In this document: positions 10,620-50,656 of the stretch, piece by piece | Position numbering within the stretch: the first letter of the stretch is position 1 | How the letters are laid out: each line of letters begins with the position of its first letter | Source: an uncultured Acidimicrobiales bacterium | GTDB taxonomy: Bacteria; Actinomycetota; Acidimicrobiia; Acidimicrobiales; Bin134 | DNA length: 64,000 nucleotides | NCBI GenBank assembly: GCA_951813325.1 | Contig: OX638350.1 | Coordinates: forward strand, 3,329,954 to 3,393,953 | Direction: 5' to 3' | Notes under the pieces: model-generated | Told to the model about the DNA's origin: nothing | Seen by the model: only the letters and a program-made list of their open reading frames with translations | Databases searched by the model: none | Position numbers and translations under genes: made by a program

Positions 10620-12734
10620 ATGAAACAGCAGAACCTTTGGCGGGTGCTCTTGACCATTCTCGTGGTTTTCGGGCTAGTGGTAGCTGGCTGCGGAAATGAC
10701 GACGACGATGCACCATCTGCTGGGCCAGCACCGGTGGAAGAAACACCCGATGCTCCCGAGGACACAGCTGCTCCGGATGACGCTGGTGAGCCGATGGACG
10801 AGGTTATGGCCATGCCGGGTGAGGGTGTAAGTGTGAGTATGGCTCGGGCGAATTGGTCTGAGGGGTATATGCAGGCGGCGATTTATCGTGCTTTGTTGCA
10901 GGAGTTGGGCTTTGAGGTGTCTGATCCCTCGGAGGCGGAGTTGGGGCCGGCTGTGTTGTATCCCGCTATGGGTGAGGGCGAGTTCGACTTCTGGGTGAAC
11001 GGTTGGTTCCCGATCCATGCCACGTTGATTGAGAACGCCGGTTTGTCTGATGTGGTTCAGCCGATCGGCTCACAGATCTCTGCTGGTGCGTTGCAGGGGT
11101 TCATCGTGGACAAGGCCACCGCTGATGCCAATGGGGTCACCAAGATGGGCGACATCGGCGACAATCCGGAGGTCGCTGCTTTGTTCGACATCGACGGCAA
11201 CGGCAAGGCCGATCTGATGGGCTGCGACGACGGTTGGGGCTGCCATGTGGTGATCAACGACACGATTGCCCAGAACGGCTGGGAGGACACCATTGAGCAG
11301 GTGTCGGCCACGCACGCGGCATTGTTCGCCGATTCGTTGGGCCGGTTCAATCGGGGCGAGTCGATCTTGCAGTACGTGTGGACGCCGGCCACGTTCACGG
11401 CCAAGCTTGTTCCGGGCGAGGATGTGATCTGGCTGTCGTTGGACAACCCGGTGCAGGATGCCGTGGTGGATCTGCCGGCCGATCAGTGTCCGGGCCAGCC
11501 CTGCCGGATGGGGTTCGACCCTGCTGATATCCGGGTGGTGGCCCGCAACGACTTCCTTATGGCCAATCCGGCCGCGGCCAAGCTGTTCGAGTTGGTCACG
11601 ATTCCCACCGTCGACGTTTTGCTCTACGCGCTGAGCTATGAGGGCGGTGCCAACAGCGAAGCCGATGTGCGGGAGGCAGCTGCCCAGTGGATCTCCGACA
11701 ACCGGGCAAACGTCGACCAATGGCTCAACGAAGCTCTGAATGCCAGCGGGTTTACCCCTGCTGCGCCTGAACCAGAACCTGAGCCGATGAACAACACGCC
11801 TGGCGAAGGCGTCGATGTGTCGATGGCTCGGGCGAATTGGTCTGAGGGGTATATGCAGGCGGCGATTTATCGTGCTTTGTTGCAGGAGTTGGGCTTTGAG
11901 GTGTCTGATCCCTCGGAGGCGGAGTTGGGGCCGGCTGTGTTGTATCCCGCTATGGGTGAGGGCGAGTTCGACTTCTGGGTGAACGGTTGGTTCCCGATCC
12001 ATGCCACGTTGATTGAGAACGCCGGTTTGTCTGATGTGGTTCAGCCGATCGGCTCACAGATCTCTGCTGGTGCGTTGCAGGGGTTCATCGTGGACAAGGC
12101 CACCGCTGATGCCAATGGGGTCACCAAGATGGGCGACATCGGCGACAATCCGGAGGTCGCTGCTTTGTTCGACATCGACGGCAACGGCAAGGCCGATCTG
12201 ATGGGCTGCGACGACGGTTGGGGCTGCCATGTGGTGATCAACGACACGATTGCCCAGAACGGCTGGGAGGACACCATTGAGCAGGTGTCGGCCACGCACG
12301 CGGCATTGTTCGCCGATTCGTTGGGCCGGTTCAATCGGGGCGAGTCGATCTTGCAGTACGTGTGGACGCCGGCCACGTTCACGGCCAAGCTTGTTCCGGG
12401 CGAGGATGTGATCTGGCTGTCGTTGGACAACCCGGTGCAGGATGCCGTGGTGGATCTGCCGGCCGATCAGTGTCCGGGCCAGCCCTGCCGGATGGGGTTC
12501 GACCCTGCTGATATCCGGGTGGTGGCCCGCAACGACTTCCTTATGGCCAATCCGGCCGCGGCCAAGCTGTTCGAGTTGGTCACGATTCCCACCGTCGACG
12601 TTTTGCTCTACGCGCTGAGCTATGAGGGCGGCGCCAACAGCGAAGCCGATGTGCGGGAGGCAGCTGCCCAGTGGATCTCCGACAACCGGGCAAACGTCGA
12701 CCAATGGCTCAACGAAGCCCGAGGAGCATCCTGA
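10620..12734 (+). CDS. glycine betaine/proline-type ABC binding lipoprotein with two identical tandem domains
   Basis: Captures a quaternary amine osmolyte for the ABC importer encoded downstream. A lipoprotein signal ends in LVVAGC (Cys near residue 22), followed by an acidic, Pro-rich linker to residue 73. Two OpuAC/ProX-like domains follow, residues 74-371 and 402-699, joined by a Pro/Glu-rich linker. Each has NWSEGYMQAAIYRALLQELG and FDFWVNGWFPIH, which carry Trp residues of the kind that form the aromatic ligand cage. The domains are identical in amino acid sequence and nearly so in DNA. At 704 residues it is about twice the usual length. GGAGGG lies 6 bases before the ATG. ATPase and permease genes follow. 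Confidence 0.92.
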   Translation: MKQQNLWRVLLTILVVFGLVVAGCGNDDDDAPSAGPAPVEETPDAPEDTAAPDDAGEPMDEVMAMPGEGVSVSMARANWSEGYMQAAIYRALLQELGFEVSDPSEAELGPAVLYPAMGEGEFDFWVNGWFPIHATLIENAGLSDVVQPIGSQISAGALQGFIVDKATADANGVTKMGDIGDNPEVAALFDIDGNGKADLMGCDDGWGCHVVINDTIAQNGWEDTIEQVSATHAALFADSLGRFNRGESILQYVWTPATFTAKLVPGEDVIWLSLDNPVQDAVVDLPADQCPGQPCRMGFDPADIRVVARNDFLMANPAAAKLFELVTIPTVDVLLYALSYEGGANSEADVREAAAQWISDNRANVDQWLNEALNASGFTPAAPEPEPEPMNNTPGEGVDVSMARANWSEGYMQAAIYRALLQELGFEVSDPSEAELGPAVLYPAMGEGEFDFWVNGWFPIHATLIENAGLSDVVQPIGSQISAGALQGFIVDKATADANGVTKMGDIGDNPEVAALFDIDGNGKADLMGCDDGWGCHVVINDTIAQNGWEDTIEQVSATHAALFADSLGRFNRGESILQYVWTPATFTAKLVPGEDVIWLSLDNPVQDAVVDLPADQCPGQPCRMGFDPADIRVVARNDFLMANPAAAKLFELVTIPTVDVLLYALSYEGGANSEADVREAAAQWISDNRANVDQWLNEARGAS
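10839..11734. repeat. direct repeat, copy 1 (binding domain)
   Basis: This 896-bp block recurs 984 bp downstream. The only difference I find is one synonymous base near 11650 (T here, C in the second copy). The sequences just outside the block differ clearly, so this is a real duplication rather than one sequence read twice. Confidence 0.95.
11823..12718. repeat. direct repeat, copy 2 (binding domain)
   Basis: Second copy of the 896-bp block, in frame with the first (offset 984 bp, 328 codons). Confidence 0.95.
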
Positions 12735-12769: not shown

Positions 12770-13989
<1,220 letters not shown>

Positions 13990-13993
<4 letters not shown>

Positions 13994-16026
13994 CAGTGCT
14001 GGCTTCCAATTTGTTCAGTACGGGCTGGTGGGATGAGGAGTGGCTGAACGAATGGGAAGTCCCGTTCGGGCGTTGGGTTGAGGAGAGCATCGATTGGCTC
14101 AACGTTAAAGGAGAAGTTGTCTTTGATGTCATCAAATGGCCCTTCGAAAATCTGCTCAATCTGATCACATACGACATATTGCTCAATATTCCGTGGCCGT
14201 TCATGCTCCTGATATTTGTGATCTTGGGTTTCCTCATCCGGGACGTGAAGATCGGGCTTGGTGCTGCGGCGGGCATTTTCTTGTGCGGTGTATTGGGTTC
14301 TGACTATTGGCTGCTGACCATGCAGACGATCGGGATCATCACAGTTGCAGTCATCATTTGTGTGGCCGTAGGTCTGCCCTATGGGGTTCTTTGTGCCCGC
14401 AGTGATCGGGTTTGGAATTTAACCCGCCCTTTATTGGACGGTATGCAGTTGGTCCACGCCTTCACGTACCTGATTGCCATCATCTTCTTTTTCGGCACAG
14501 GACCGGTGGGCGGGACCATATCTACCATGATCTTTGCTCTACCTCCCATGATCCGCCTCACCAACCTGGGTATCCGCCAAGTGCCCGGTGACGTCGTTGA
14601 GGCCGCTCGAGCCTATGGGGCGTCTGATTTCCGGGTGCTGGTTGATGTCCAGCTCCCGCTGGCTCGTCCTGCCATCATGACCGGCGTCAACCAAGTGCTG
14701 CTGCTTTCGTTATCGTTTGTCGGCATTATTGCCGTTATCGCCGGGGGCGGCCTCGGACAAGAAGTGTTCCGAGGCATTCAGAGCAGCAATTCAGCAATTG
14801 GTGCAGCTTCGGGTTTGGCGCTTTATCTGGTGGGGGTGGTCTTGGATCGGCTCAGTCAGCCGCAACCTACCGACAACCGCACCTTGATTCGCAGAATTGG
14901 ATCGGCCCTTCGAAGCGACTACAAGATTCCGCCGCCAGCGACTGCTTCAGCCAGTGGATTGGAGGGAGCGGAAACAGGCAGCGACCTTTCGCCCACTTCG
15001 CGCTCGCAGTCCATTTCGGTTCGCCCGGAGCAGCCGCCATACCTCCGGTTTGCCGCATTGGCCGGGATGGCTGGCGGTGTCTTGGCCATGGCCAGTTTGT
15101 TCCTCACGTGGACAAGTGGTGCCGGGCGAGTCAGTGGCTATGCCCGTCCCTCCGATTTGAAAATCGACGGCACGTTCGATGGGCACAGCGCGAGCGGTGG
15201 GAGTTGGTTCGGCATCTTTGTATTTCTGATCGGAGTGATGGTTGCTGTTCTTTCTGCTCTTGTGCTGCTCCGCAGACGTGCCGCATTTACTCGGTGGTTG
15301 GGGGTTCCCCTCGGGGTGATAGCAGCGGGCGCGTCTATCGCTGGCATGATGATCGTCTACCTGCTGATAGCTCCGCACGATCTAGCTGAACCGACCAAGC
15401 ATGGTATTGGTGCGTATCTTGCTCTAGTCGGCGGACTACTTCTGATAGCTGGAGGTATTGCTGCCGTTGGCATCTGGCGGCAGCCAGCAAGACCTATTGC
15501 TGTATCGCCTGTTCTTGTTGCATTGACTCTGGCTGCCGTCGGGTTCCTTGCTGTTGGTTCAGTTGCAAACTGGGTCAGCGATTCGAGACCTGGAGCACTG
15601 ACCCCTGAGCAGCAGCTTCAGATCGAAGCCGAACGGGAAAACCCCACTGATGCCGGCACGGCGATTTTGAATCAAAGCCTGTCCAGTGATGATCCGATCC
15701 GATTTAGCGGGTTCAACGATAGCGGCCCGAATCTGAGTATGGGTATGCTGCTGGCTGCGGTTGCGGTACTAGTCATTGGTGCTCTTGCTTTCGCTGTGCG
15801 CTGGGCAGCCGCATTGCTTGACGCCCTTCTGCTAGGAATTGGTACCGCGGTATTGCTCAGCATCAGCGCGTGGACAGTCAGTTTCCTACGTGTAGCCGAT
15901 AACGGCCTATACACCGGTGCCGCTGCACTTCCCAGTCTCGTGGGAGGCGCGTTGGCAGTCCTAGTAGCCATCGTCCGCATGCGCCAGCGCAGCCTGGATG
16001 AGCGCGAGGCTGCTGCTGCGCAATAG
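13990..16026 (+). CDS. glycine betaine-type ABC permease with long extra C-terminal membrane domain
   Basis: Membrane channel of the importer. Residues about 60-295 are a ProW/OpuAB-type permease with the cytoplasmic EAA loop EAARAYGASDFRVLVDVQLP. After a polar linker rich in Ser, Thr and Pro (about 310-350), a second part of about 320 residues adds five to seven hydrophobic segments and ends in RQRSLDEREAAAAQ. ProW is usually near 300-350 residues; this one is 678. I do not recognise the added domain. A partial, diverged copy of its 3' end lies 0.8 kb downstream, so a related gene once stood there. It is translationally coupled to the ATPase. Confidence 0.85.
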
Positions 16027-16516: not shown

Positions 16517-16718
16517 GGTGCCAGCCGCCCGTCAACGGCCTGGGTGCTCAGCGCCTACTCCATTTCGCTGGCCACATTTGTGGTTGCGGCCGGGCGTCTT
16601 GCCGACCGTACGGGACGCAGGTGGGCCTTTCTCCTCGGTCTTTCCCTGTTCGTGGTGGGCTCGGTTGGCGGCTGGTTGGCACCGGAGTTGTGGGTGCTGG
16701 TGTTGTGCCGGGCGATGC
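16517..16718 (+). pseudogene. displaced fragment of MFS exporter gene
   Basis: This 202-bp stretch matches 19141-19342 of the intact MFS gene with two mismatches found by eye. It covers membrane helices 2 and 3 only, has no start, and is fused at both ends to unrelated sequence. It must come from a recent duplication or recombination event. Confidence 0.9.
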
Positions 16719-16719
16719 A

Positions 16720-17006
16720 ACCGGTGCCGCTGCACTTCCCAGTCTCGTGGGAGGGGGCCTAGTGGTGTGTCGTGGGTTTAGCGCCGTGGATTGCGACGGC
16801 AGCGGCGTTCCTCGCAAGGCGCACCGACGCAGCCATACTTCCAGCGTACGGCAAGGAGGGGCAACGCCGCGAGGGGCGTCGATGCCTAGCAGAACACGCG
16901 CGAATAAACCCACGACACACCACTAGCCGTCGTGGTTGCTGCCATCCGCAGGCACCAGCGCAGTCTGGATGAGCGCGAGACTGCTGACGCTGCTGTTGCG
17001 CAATAG
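16720..17006 (+). pseudogene. diverged 3' end of a second ABC permease gene, split by a MITE
   Basis: The sequence encodes TGAAALPSLVGGGL, is interrupted by a 168-bp element, and resumes as AVVVAAIRRHQRSLDERE to a TAG stop. Removing the element and one CTAG joins the reading frame exactly. The result parallels the end of the intact permease gene (TGAAALPSLVGGALAVLV and RQRSLDEREAAAAQ) but has diverged, so it is the relic of a paralogous or allelic gene, not a fresh copy. Its 5' part has been lost and replaced by the MFS fragment. Confidence 0.85.
16759..16926. mobile_element. 168-bp MITE, copy 1
   Basis: Bounded by CTAG on both sides, with terminal inverted repeats AGTGGTGTGTCGTGGGTTTA that match perfectly. 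It differs from the copy at 33459-33626 by one base. Excision restores the reading frame of the permease relic, which proves insertion. It has no convincing gene. Target duplication is CTAG or TA; both IS5-type (YTAR) and IS630-type (TA) transposases could fit, and an IS630 fragment lies about 240 bp upstream. Confidence 0.92.
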
Positions 17007-19029: not shown

Positions 19030-20412
19030 GTGCTAGCGCGTCATTGGGCGGTCTTCTGGGTGTGCATGGGGGCGGTGTTCCTGATCACCATGGACGCCAC
19101 CCTGCAACCGCTGGCTCTGGTGAGCATCGGAGAGAGCTTCGGTGCCAGCCGCCCGTCAACGGCCTGGGTGCTCAGCGCCTACTCCATTTCGCTGGCCACA
19201 TTTGTGGTTGCGGCCGGGCGTCTTGCCGACCGTACGGGACGCAGGTGGGCCTTTCTCCTCGGTCTTTCCCTGTTCGTGTTGGGCTCGGTTGGCGGCTGGT
19301 TGGCACCGGAGTTGTGGGTGCTGGTGTTGTGCCGGGCGGTGCAGGGCGCCGGCTCCGCATTTGTCATGCCCGCATCTCTCGGCTTGATTCTGGCCGTGTG
19401 GCCCGAAGACGACCAGACTCGGGCCATCACCACCTGGACTGCCGTCGGCGGGATCGCCGGCGCTCTGGCGCCCACGCTCGGCGGGACGCTCATCGACGTC
19501 TGGGGCTGGAGGGCGGCCTATGTGCTGAATGTGGCCATCGGGGTGCCGTCGTTTCTTGCTGCCCGGTTCCTGCTCGCCGAAACCGAGCGCAAGGTTGCTT
19601 CTCGGCTTCCCGACTTCGTGGGCGCGCTCATGGTGGCGGCCAGTCTCGGCCTGTTGACCCTCAGCCTGGTACAGGGCCGCACATGGGGCTGGACCGACAG
19701 TCGCATCATCGTGGCCTTCGCCTTGGCCGCCGTGCTGGTACCGCTGATACGGCAGCGGATCCTGGGCCACCCGGCACCCATCGTCGAGCCTCGCCTGTTG
19801 AGGCTTCGGACCTACCGGCGGGCGCTGTTCATCGCCATCGCCATTCCCAGCTTCTTGTTCCCCTACTTCGTGATGATGGTGCAATATCTCGAACAGGTTT
19901 GGGAGTACCGGCCGCTGAGAGCGGGATTGGCCCTGTTGCCCTTTCCCGCGGCGGCCACCTTGGCCAGCGTGTTGGCCGGGCGCTTGAGCCGCCGCTTCGA
20001 CGAGCGCACCATCGCGGTTGCCGCCATGGCCACCACCACGGTGGCAGTGGTGTGGCTGCGATTGGTGCCCGGTCCTGATCCAGCTTATTGGACGGCGTTC
20101 TTTGTGCCCATAGTCTTGGGGGGCATCGGCGGCTGGGGGATGGGCCTTCCCATGATCAACGCAATCGGGGCCCGAGACCTCGATGACGACACCTACAGCC
20201 TGGGTATGGGGGTGTTGTCAACCGCCCGCCAAGTGGGAGCGCTGACCGGTTTGGCTGTTGCCTTCGGTCTTCTGGGCAACGTGTCCGACGCCGAGCTGTT
20301 CGAGCGCTTCCGACAGATCTGGACCGTGTTGGTGGTGCTGTCGATCATGGGCGTATTCGTCGCCCTGTCCCTGCCCCACCGCACTGCACGGCCTCGCCGA
20401 GGGGGAAGCTAA
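19030..20412 (+). CDS. MFS transporter, drug:H+ antiporter-2-like
   Basis: Probable multidrug or metabolite exporter of 460 residues with 12-14 hydrophobic segments. The N-terminal half has the DHA2-type pattern TMDATLQPLALVSIGESFG, the A-type loop GRLADRTGRRWAFLLG, and motif C-like GIAGALAPTLGGTLIDVWGW. The start is GTG. A 202-bp piece of this gene, covering helices 2 and 3, is duplicated 2.6 kb upstream. The DUF4389 pseudogene follows 6 bases after the stop. Substrate unknown. Confidence 0.88.
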   Translation: MLARHWAVFWVCMGAVFLITMDATLQPLALVSIGESFGASRPSTAWVLSAYSISLATFVVAAGRLADRTGRRWAFLLGLSLFVLGSVGGWLAPELWVLVLCRAVQGAGSAFVMPASLGLILAVWPEDDQTRAITTWTAVGGIAGALAPTLGGTLIDVWGWRAAYVLNVAIGVPSFLAARFLLAETERKVASRLPDFVGALMVAASLGLLTLSLVQGRTWGWTDSRIIVAFALAAVLVPLIRQRILGHPAPIVEPRLLRLRTYRRALFIAIAIPSFLFPYFVMMVQYLEQVWEYRPLRAGLALLPFPAAATLASVLAGRLSRRFDERTIAVAAMATTTVAVVWLRLVPGPDPAYWTAFFVPIVLGGIGGWGMGLPMINAIGARDLDDDTYSLGMGVLSTARQVGALTGLAVAFGLLGNVSDAELFERFRQIWTVLVVLSIMGVFVALSLPHRTARPRRGGS

Positions 20413-33422: not shown

Positions 33423-33458
33423 ATGCCTCAGCGTATGGCCCTCGTAGCCCGCCGTCAC

Positions 33459-33626
33459 CTAGTGGTGTGTCGTGGGTTTAGCGCCGTGGATTGCGACGGC
33501 AGCGGCGTTCCTCGCAAGGCGCACCGACGCAGCCATACTTCCAGCGTACGGCAAGGAGGGGCAACGCCGCGAGGGGCGTCGATGCCTAGCAGGACACGCG
33601 CGAATAAACCCACGACACACCACTAG
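33459..33626. mobile_element. 168-bp MITE, copy 2
   Basis: Same length and ends as copy 1 at 16.76 kb, with one base difference (near 33589). It is flanked by CTAG at each end, in what was probably the palindrome CACCTAGGTG. The right-hand CTAG supplies the TAG stop of fxsA. It sits 36 bases upstream of the selA start. Confidence 0.92.
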
Positions 33627-34051
33627 GTGCCGTCGGCGATGTCGGTGTCGTGGACCGTTCCCGGTTCGGGGCTGTCGGGTCCGTAGTAGGCCACCCGATG
33701 ACGGAATCGGCGAATCACAATCGGGCGGATCACCATTCGGGTCGGCCGGAACAACAGCAGCAGGCCGAAGGCGTCGGTCACGAACCCGGGAGTGAGCATG
33801 AGGGCCCCGGCAAACAGCACCAAGGCGCCGTCCACCAGCTCGCGGCCCGGCATCTGGCCCTCACTGAGCTTGCTCCGCACCCGCCAGAGCACTGCCATTC
33901 CCTGGGCTTTGACCATCCAGGCGCCTGCCACGCTCACCAATATCAGCAGGCCGATCGTCTCCAGCGTCCCAATGCTGCGGGCTGTCTCCACAATCACGTA
34001 CAGCTCCACCAGCGGAACCGCGACGAACAGGAGCACCAGCCAGATGAGCAT
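33623..34051 (-). CDS. fxsA: FxsA family membrane protein
   Basis: Cytoplasmic-membrane protein of 142 residues; E. coli FxsA is known for easing exclusion of phage T7 by the F plasmid, but its normal role is unclear. The family start MLIWLVLLFVAVPLVELYVI is followed by RSIGTLETIGLLILVSVAGA, then FAGALMLTPGFVTDAFGLLL, giving three to four membrane segments. The acidic tail ends just at the MITE: the stop codon lies in the element's flanking CTAG. It starts 8 bases after the mrp stop, so the two are co-transcribed. Confidence 0.9.
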   Translation of the reverse strand: MLIWLVLLFVAVPLVELYVIVETARSIGTLETIGLLILVSVAGAWMVKAQGMAVLWRVRSKLSEGQMPGRELVDGALVLFAGALMLTPGFVTDAFGLLLLFRPTRMVIRPIVIRRFRHRVAYYGPDSPEPGTVHDTDIADGT

Positions 34052-47837: not shown

Positions 47838-47930
47838 CGGAGGTGGACGGGAATCGAACCCGCCGGACGGGGATCGCCCGTCCCACCCGCTTTGAAGGCG
47901 GGGGAGCCCACCAGGTACTCAGACACCTCC
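47838..47930 (-). tRNA. selC: tRNA-Sec (UCA anticodon)
   Basis: The reverse strand starts GGAGGTGTCTGAG and ends CCACCTCCG, giving an extended acceptor stem. The anticodon loop is CTTCAAA (UCA) between CCCGC-like and GCGGG-like arms, a long variable arm ACGGGCGATCCCCGT follows, and the T-loop is GGGTTCGATTCCC. At 93 bases without CCA it has the length and shape of bacterial selenocysteine tRNA, and it reads UGA. selA and selB lie 15 kb to the left. Confidence 0.95.
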
Positions 47931-49573: not shown

Positions 49574-50656
49574 TTACTGCCCGGTGGAGATCGATCCGTC
49601 GGACAGGCCGTCGATGGTGGCCTGGGCTGAGGCCAACACGTCGGCGGGGATGTCCATGACATCGTTGAACTGGATGTCCAGCCCGCCGTCTTCGAAGGTC
49701 ATGATAAAGGTCTCGCCACCGAGGGTGCCGGCTTTGACCTGATCGACGACCTTGGAGAGCACGACCTCCCAGCGGTACACCTGCGAGGCGACCACGATGT
49801 CTTCGCCGAGGGCGGTCTGGTTGGCCTGGGTGCCGAACCACAGCACGCCGTTCTCCTGAGCAACGCCGGTGGCGCCCACCACCATTTGGGCCGAGCCGGT
49901 TAGCACATCCGCGCCTGCCGAGATATGCGATTGAGCAGCCTCAGCGGCCAGTGCTACGTCGGCGAATGATCCGGTGTAGACGATGTTGACTTCCACATCG
50001 GGGTTCTGGGCCGTGGCTCCGGCGGCGAACCCGTCCACATAGAGCTTGGCGTCGCCTACCTCGATCGGACCGACAACGCCGATCACGTTGCTCTCCGTGA
50101 GCTGGGCCGCGACCACGCCGTTGACGTACCCACCGAGGTCGGAGCGGACCGAGTAGGAGTACACGTTGGGCAAGCCGAAGGTGTCAACCGCGGTGCCCCA
50201 GGCGAACGATACGTCCGGGAAGTCTGGAGCAATTTCTTCGAGTGGACCGCCGTACTGGGAGCCGTGGGCGATGACCAGGTGGTAGCCCTCATCGGCGTAT
50301 CCTCGGATAGCTGCGGCCGCGTCCTCCACGATGAAAGTGCCGTCGGTGATGGCGAACTCAGCGATTTGCCCAGAAGCCACGAGGGAGTTCACTGCGTCGT
50401 ACATGCTCTGGGTGAACGCCAGGTCGTTGCTGGCGCTTGGGGCTACCACCGCGACGCGGAATGGCTCCTCGGGCTCGGGCGCTGGTGCTTCGGTCGGTGC
50501 CTCAGTCGGCGCAGGCGCCTCCGTAGCCGGAGCAGGCGCCTCCGTGGCCGGAGCAGGCCCCGACGGAGCGTCGTCGTCGTTGCCGCACCCCGCCACCGCC
50601 AACGAGAAAACCGCCAGCAGTGCAAGGAACAGTCTGAACACGAGTCGTGGTTTCAT
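49574..50656 (-). CDS. BMP-family basic membrane lipoprotein, probable nucleoside-binding
   Basis: Periplasm-side binding lipoprotein of 360 residues. Signal MKPRLVFRLFLALLAVFSLA ends at AGC (lipid Cys near residue 23), followed by a linker of repeated ATEAPAP units. The mature domain reads RVAVVAPSASNDLAFTQSMY, with GYADEGYHLVIAHGSQYGGP and YSVRSDLGGYVNGVVAAQL, typical of BMP/PnrA purine-nucleoside binders. The ATG has AGGGAGGGG about 7 bases upstream. It lies between the permease pair and the ATPase, so all four are one system. The shared start AGCGNDDD resembles the osmolyte-binding lipoprotein. Confidence 0.93.
   Translation of the reverse strand: MKPRLVFRLFLALLAVFSLAVAGCGNDDDAPSGPAPATEAPAPATEAPAPTEAPTEAPAPEPEEPFRVAVVAPSASNDLAFTQSMYDAVNSLVASGQIAEFAITDGTFIVEDAAAAIRGYADEGYHLVIAHGSQYGGPLEEIAPDFPDVSFAWGTAVDTFGLPNVYSYSVRSDLGGYVNGVVAAQLTESNVIGVVGPIEVGDAKLYVDGFAAGATAQNPDVEVNIVYTGSFADVALAAEAAQSHISAGADVLTGSAQMVVGATGVAQENGVLWFGTQANQTALGEDIVVASQVYRWEVVLSKVVDQVKAGTLGGETFIMTFEDGGLDIQFNDVMDIPADVLASAQATIDGLSDGSISTGQ

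Follow-up and report, generated by a model that had tools for sequence, protein, structure and literature searches.

Near-identical tandem ProX domains in a lipid-anchored betaine receptor of an Acidimicrobiales bacterium: probable gene conversion in an older tandem

Among the genes found in a 64,000-nucleotide stretch of an uncultured Acidimicrobiales genome (the whole stretch analysed, hereafter the window), a proX-like gene encodes a lipoprotein with two ProX domains in one chain, identical in amino acid sequence and one synonymous base apart in DNA. We consider it likely that this protein is a ProX receptor with tandem binding domains, that the tandem is older than its present near-identity and has been homogenised by gene conversion, and that the receptor serves the ProV-ProW importer encoded beside it. 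No description of identical tandem ProX domains was found in the open-licence literature. The genome consists of a single contig of 3,592,749 bp, in which the proX-like gene matches at one place.

The features of the gene and its neighbours are listed in Table 1. The two-domain gene comes first in an operon of the order proX-proV-proW, in which the start of proW overlaps proV by 4 bp. The added hydrophobic C-terminal half of proW (positions 14900-16026) has about seven predicted segments, and no Pfam match beyond BPD_transp_1 was found for it; the proW genes of the relatives are likewise long. A search of Rfam found no RNA element near the proX-like gene.

Table 1. Features of the proX-like gene and its operon in the window
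Feature	Position	Strand	Evidence
proX-like gene encoding a lipoprotein of 704 aa with a pair of ProX (OpuAC) domains	10620..12734	+	Open frame from ATG at 10620 to the stop at 12734; two OpuAC stretches, E 2.4e-74; NF008334
Signal peptide with lipobox LVVAGC (Cys24)	10620..10691	+	Sequence; Cys24 invariant in nine homologues
Acidic tether of ~50 residues from the lipid anchor to domain 1, ending in MPGEGVSVS	10692..10838	+	Sequence
Block copy 1, domain 1, with cage Trp129, Trp206 and Trp254	10839..11734	+	1 difference/896 from copy 2; 1R9L alignment
88-bp interdomain linker LNASGFTPAAPEPEPEPMNNTPGEGVDVS (29 residues)	11735..11822	+	Lies between the two ProX domains
Block copy 2, domain 2	11823..12718	+	1 difference/896 from copy 1
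Sole base differing between copies (T at 11648, C at 12632), Gly codon, synonymous	11648	+	
proV, ABC ATPase with CBS domain, 35 bp downstream of the proX-like gene	12770..13993	+	ABC_tran, CBS; TIGR01186 above cut-off
proW, permease, N-terminal part of ~300 aa and extra hydrophobic C-terminal half	13990..16026	+	BPD_transp_1 128-288; ProW match 23-298; hydropathy

Among solved structures the domain is closest to E. coli ProX (1R9L), with a full-length alignment at an E value of 2.5e-53, and the two-domain protein scores 545 bits in two stretches against the ProX equivalog NF008334 (cut-off 215). Both partners are encoded alongside: proV passes the TIGR01186 cut-off, and the permease resembles ProW at a score below its equivalog cut-off (239 vs 439 bits). 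By alignment, the window protein has Trp129, Trp206, Trp254 and His133 where ProX has the residues of its established ligand cage, Trp65, Trp140, Trp188 and His69; the Cys136/Cys142 pair corresponds to Cys202 and Cys208. The betaine cage residues of ProX were reportedly described by Schiefner et al. in 2004 (cited in PMC2861598). The counterparts of the cage tryptophans, the histidine and the cysteines are invariant across nine aligned homologues, and domain 2 repeats all the cage motifs at +328 residues; by homology, both domains should have glycine betaine or a closely related quaternary amine as ligand. The sequence-only reading had called the protein betaine-type and had thought of fused OpuA-type systems: the former stands, the latter (a permease-fused receptor) gives way to the ProX family of ProU, as indicated by the 1R9L and NF008334 matches. 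An AlphaFold model of the whole 704-aa chain, made with nine sequences, shows helices and strands in a similar order twice over, with scores (mean pLDDT 63.5, pTM 0.40) too weak for statements on domain contacts.

The sequence-only reading had noted two 896-bp blocks coding for identical domains and differing by one synonymous base, as well as the sequences MPGEGVSVS and TPGEGVDVS in front of them. Both observations were borne out, and the stated coordinates are exact: block 10839-11734 matches block 11823-12718 at an offset of 984, the one difference being T at 11648 against C at 12632. Since 809 bases in a row are identical and no other repeat of about 0.9 kb exists within the 64-kb window, the similarity cannot be due to chance. 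Inside the block there is one synonymous difference among ~200 synonymous sites. The edges of the blocks are homologous yet diverged (PGEGVSVS/PGEGVDVS before and ALNAS/ARGAS after), and each end of the linker is homologous, in diverged form, to the sequence flanking the other copy. Although these edges are short (8 and 5 codons), 12 of their 13 homologous codons differ, nine of them synonymously, as against one of ~298 inside the block (Fisher P ~1e-13 with the nine synonymous differences alone counted). Protein-level purifying selection keeping the domains alike with no exchange of DNA would agree with the strong selection seen in the family (dN/dS ~0.1), but the synonymous sites are also identical except for one in ~200 while the edge codons have diverged synonymously, and we give this explanation almost no credence.

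The window genome is of the Candidatus Poriferisocius type; the near relatives belong to Candidatus Poriferisocius, a sponge-dwelling genus, and the best match among named genomes (L032) is Ca. P. aerobius. In the genome collection the family is represented by this one genus with 22 genomes. The full-length query matches something in all 22, many of the weak matches being confined to the signal-peptide region, and a ProX domain is found at E values up to 1e-35 in 20 of the 22. In-frame ProX-ProX tandems occur in the window genome (G000), G021, G004 and G010. Among the assembled genomes, neither outcome that would have spoken against the earlier claim occurred: relatives carry tandems as well, and one of them, 78% identical to the window gene, belongs to G021, a second single-contig genome with the same layout. 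Several relatives have one ProX domain (for example G002, G006 and G017), eight carry fusions of ProX to a Bmp domain (G001, G008, G010, G011, G012, G016, G018 and G019), and G016 and G019 each possess two separate ProX genes. The locus is syntenic, with two gene orders. The window, G021 and G002 share the order rhomboid, proX, proV, proW, preceded by sulfatase and monooxygenase genes where the contig extends far enough; the second order is rhomboid, proV, proW, one or more ProX genes, ProX-Bmp and a two-domain ABC ATPase. Outside the order, among the matches listed in the phylum (E up to 1e-45), no in-frame ProX pair was found, and the listed matches on plasmids, ProX genes some 0.9 kb long, each hit both query domains and thus have a single domain.

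The tandems of G021 and G004 and the gene pairs of G016 and G019 display the same kind of homogeneity. The G021 tandem runs for 918 bp with no difference, followed by five clustered differences, and in G004 the final 846 bp of the tract are identical. The paired genes of G016 and G019 contain tracts of 1047 and 1206 bp with zero differences; their domains are 100% identical within each genome, compared with 95.2% identity (4.8% divergence) in the same domain between the two genomes. The domain tree joins the two copies of each of G000, G021 and G004 as sisters, at 99-100% support. By identities and tree alike, copies within a genome resemble each other more than their counterparts elsewhere, as in concerted evolution.

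Tract boundaries were also obtained from the quartet of domains of G004 and G010. Twenty sites follow the orthology pattern (first domain with first, second with second), and all of them are located at columns <=74 or >=1045 of 1059; 56 sites group the domains by genome, all at columns 126-1036, and one site crosses. The nominal probability of this separation, computed after the boundaries were seen, is near 1e-18. From this pattern, the G004/G010 tandem most likely predates the divergence of these species, its core having been overwritten in G004. Contraction to one domain followed by re-duplication is disfavoured for this pair, because the linker and the edges would have been lost. In G010 the two domains have hardly been homogenised (dS 0.37 between domain 1 and domain 2), and conversion is therefore episodic. 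With sharp tract edges and older divergence outside them found both in the window, where they are short, and in the quartet, we infer that the window tandem too is older than its near-identity and that gene conversion recently overwrote its core.

Of the two routes named in the sequence-only reading, very recent duplication and ongoing gene conversion, the second, acting in an older tandem, is favoured by the diverged edges, by the relatives and by the quartet test. The first would be a neutral tandem duplication of very recent date in the window lineage, about to be lost and with no older tandem behind it. One synonymous change in ~200 synonymous sites is what such a duplication predicts, and single-domain genes occur in G002, G006, G017 and others. 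Apparently fresh tandems do arise: G197, from another family of the order, has an exact in-frame ProX tandem near a contig start (L078, 2-2233) with 1017 bp free of differences; its 1011-bp unit is directly followed by the copy, without a separate or diverged linker, and the tandem may be either freshly duplicated or produced by the assembly. A recent duplication would have copied the junction too, however, whereas diverged homologous codons stand at both edges of the window blocks, the distinct 88-bp linker resembles that of G021, and the tandems or pairs of other genomes show equal within-genome identity. We therefore regard a recent duplication as improbable, if still deserving some weight. 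The linkers of G000 and G021 are alike (ASGFTPA.PEP), and further linkers akin to that of the window precede the second ProX in L035 and Bmp in L036 and L074. Since a linker of the ASGFTPA type leads into a Bmp domain in G001, G007 and G009, and species with a single ProX fall between G000 and G021 in the domain tree, the tandems of these two genomes may be of separate origin.

Repeats of 0.9 kb break short-read assemblies, and identical repeats in drafts can be assembler consensus; a duplicated or collapsed repeat might then create or falsify a second domain. Contig ends lie at ProX in ten drafts. In G013 (30 contigs) and G011 (40 contigs), two contig ends each are found at the ProX locus, compared with ~0.05 expected in 3 kb, and the paired ends share an exact 141-bp overlap, as is typical of a branch in a de Bruijn graph. 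Several points speak against an artefact in the window: a unique linker stands between the copies, one base distinguishes them, two species (the window's and G021), each in a single contig, share the layout, and the effect of draft assembly is to interrupt or shorten the array, not to invent it; an artefact is thus very unlikely. The window and G021, being one contig each, are the safest observations. Because more contigs than expected end within ProX or shortly after it, single-domain counts taken from drafts are likely to be minimum values, and short-read genomes of the group probably under-count such domains. The G010 locus, pieced together from two contig ends across an unclosed gap (ProX-ProX, ProX-ProX and ProX-Bmp), suggests five ProX domains.

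Selection for two domains had also been put forward as possible. The two G010 domains have a dN/dS of 0.095 at a dS of 0.37, and since constraint was kept over this long divergence, both are evidently functional by this sequence measure; in G010 the proposal thus gains support from purifying selection on both copies, while the core of the window tandem is too young for selection to be measured.

In ProU, ProX hands betaine to ProW and ProV powers transport. We propose a similar route here: a membrane-anchored ProX receptor for glycine betaine or proline betaine would feed the adjacent ProV-ProW importer, with two tandem binding domains sharing one lipid-anchored chain. Homologous, non-reciprocal recombination between the copies would overwrite about 0.9 kb and spare the linker and domain edges. 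Each domain would capture ligand independently and either could dock on ProW, so that, by analogy with GlnPQ and OpuA, the binding sites per lipid anchor would be doubled with unchanged affinity. The greater local ligand capture proposed in the sequence-only reading would be a plausible consequence. The window protein shares with E. coli ProX (ProU/ProVWX) full-length homology, the same tryptophan cage, His and disulfide positions, and the partner genes; it has two domains in one lipoprotein, whereas E. coli ProX is a single-domain soluble periplasmic protein, and the window ProW, unlike that of ProU, has the added hydrophobic C-terminal half. In GlnPQ of Lactococcus lactis, a tandem SBD1-SBD2 forms part of one chain of the ABC importer, and the receptor domains are largely independent and compete for docking (PMC8025302). 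The window protein likewise has two substrate-binding domains per chain, but in GlnPQ the two are unlike in sequence and in specificity and are permease-fused, whereas those of the window are identical and belong to a separate lipoprotein gene, the permease being a different ORF. In OpuA of L. lactis, betaine receptor domains are tethered near the translocator, two per complex, and betaine binding is non-cooperative (PMC2861598); OpuA has one domain per permease chain without the in-chain tandem of the window. Tandem-receptor ABC importers such as GlnPQ are thus already known, and identical domains under concerted evolution are the new aspect. Concerted evolution within a single bacterial transport receptor gene is seen here in clear natural form, its tract edges still recognisable, and the importer is one whose receptor number can vary at constant specificity; its chemically identical receptor domains make the role of extra tethered receptors in ABC importers testable.

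Across the genus, ProX domains are found as two in one chain, as paired genes, as ProX-Bmp fusions and possibly as five domains at the G010 locus. It is conceivable, and we put it forward tentatively, that the betaine importers of the genus draw on a recombining array of interchangeable ProX cassettes that conversion keeps equal, the number of receptors per importer being tuned by cassette number and not by expression. Elsewhere in the order, two adjacent and separate ProX genes, mutually diverged, lie beside proW (L079, 3074-5604; L080, 3061-5635; L081, L082 and L083), and several receptors per importer may perhaps be a wider habit in the order.

Lipoproteins fusing a ProX domain to a Bmp/PnrA-like receptor (L036, 6070-8163; L048, L049, L050, L051 and L055) join the receptors of two different importers on one anchor. 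Their genes are flanked by proV-proW on one side and, on the other, by a two-domain ABC ATPase resembling the one in the window Bmp operon. They share with the window protein the N-terminal ProX domain, a related linker and the position beside proV-proW; their second domain is PnrA-like (Bmp), while that of the window protein is a second ProX. The window Bmp receptor itself is a stand-alone lipoprotein gene (49574-50656, minus strand) in its own operon.

In L057 (7570-9750), L058, L059, L062, L084 and L085, a ProX domain precedes an SBP_bac_3/Lig_chan/Ion_trans_2 protein, which gives a GluR0-like ligand-gated channel an additional binding domain at its N-terminus. A separate ProX gene usually lies alongside, and such fusions are also present in another family of the order. 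GluR0 itself has no N-terminal domain according to PMC6385376, and so these fusions merit a study of their own.

Three other elements were observed in the window. A MITE-like element of ~170 bp with ~57-bp imperfect terminal inverted repeats occurs at 16758-16933 and 33458-33633, and over 35 additional copies, 98-99% identical, are spread through the genome. A 203-bp direct repeat, 99% identical, lies at 16517-16719 and 19141-19343, with only these two copies among the matches listed. A selenocysteine tRNA gene (47839-47930, minus strand) has a sigma-factor gene on one side and the ATPase of the Bmp operon on the other.
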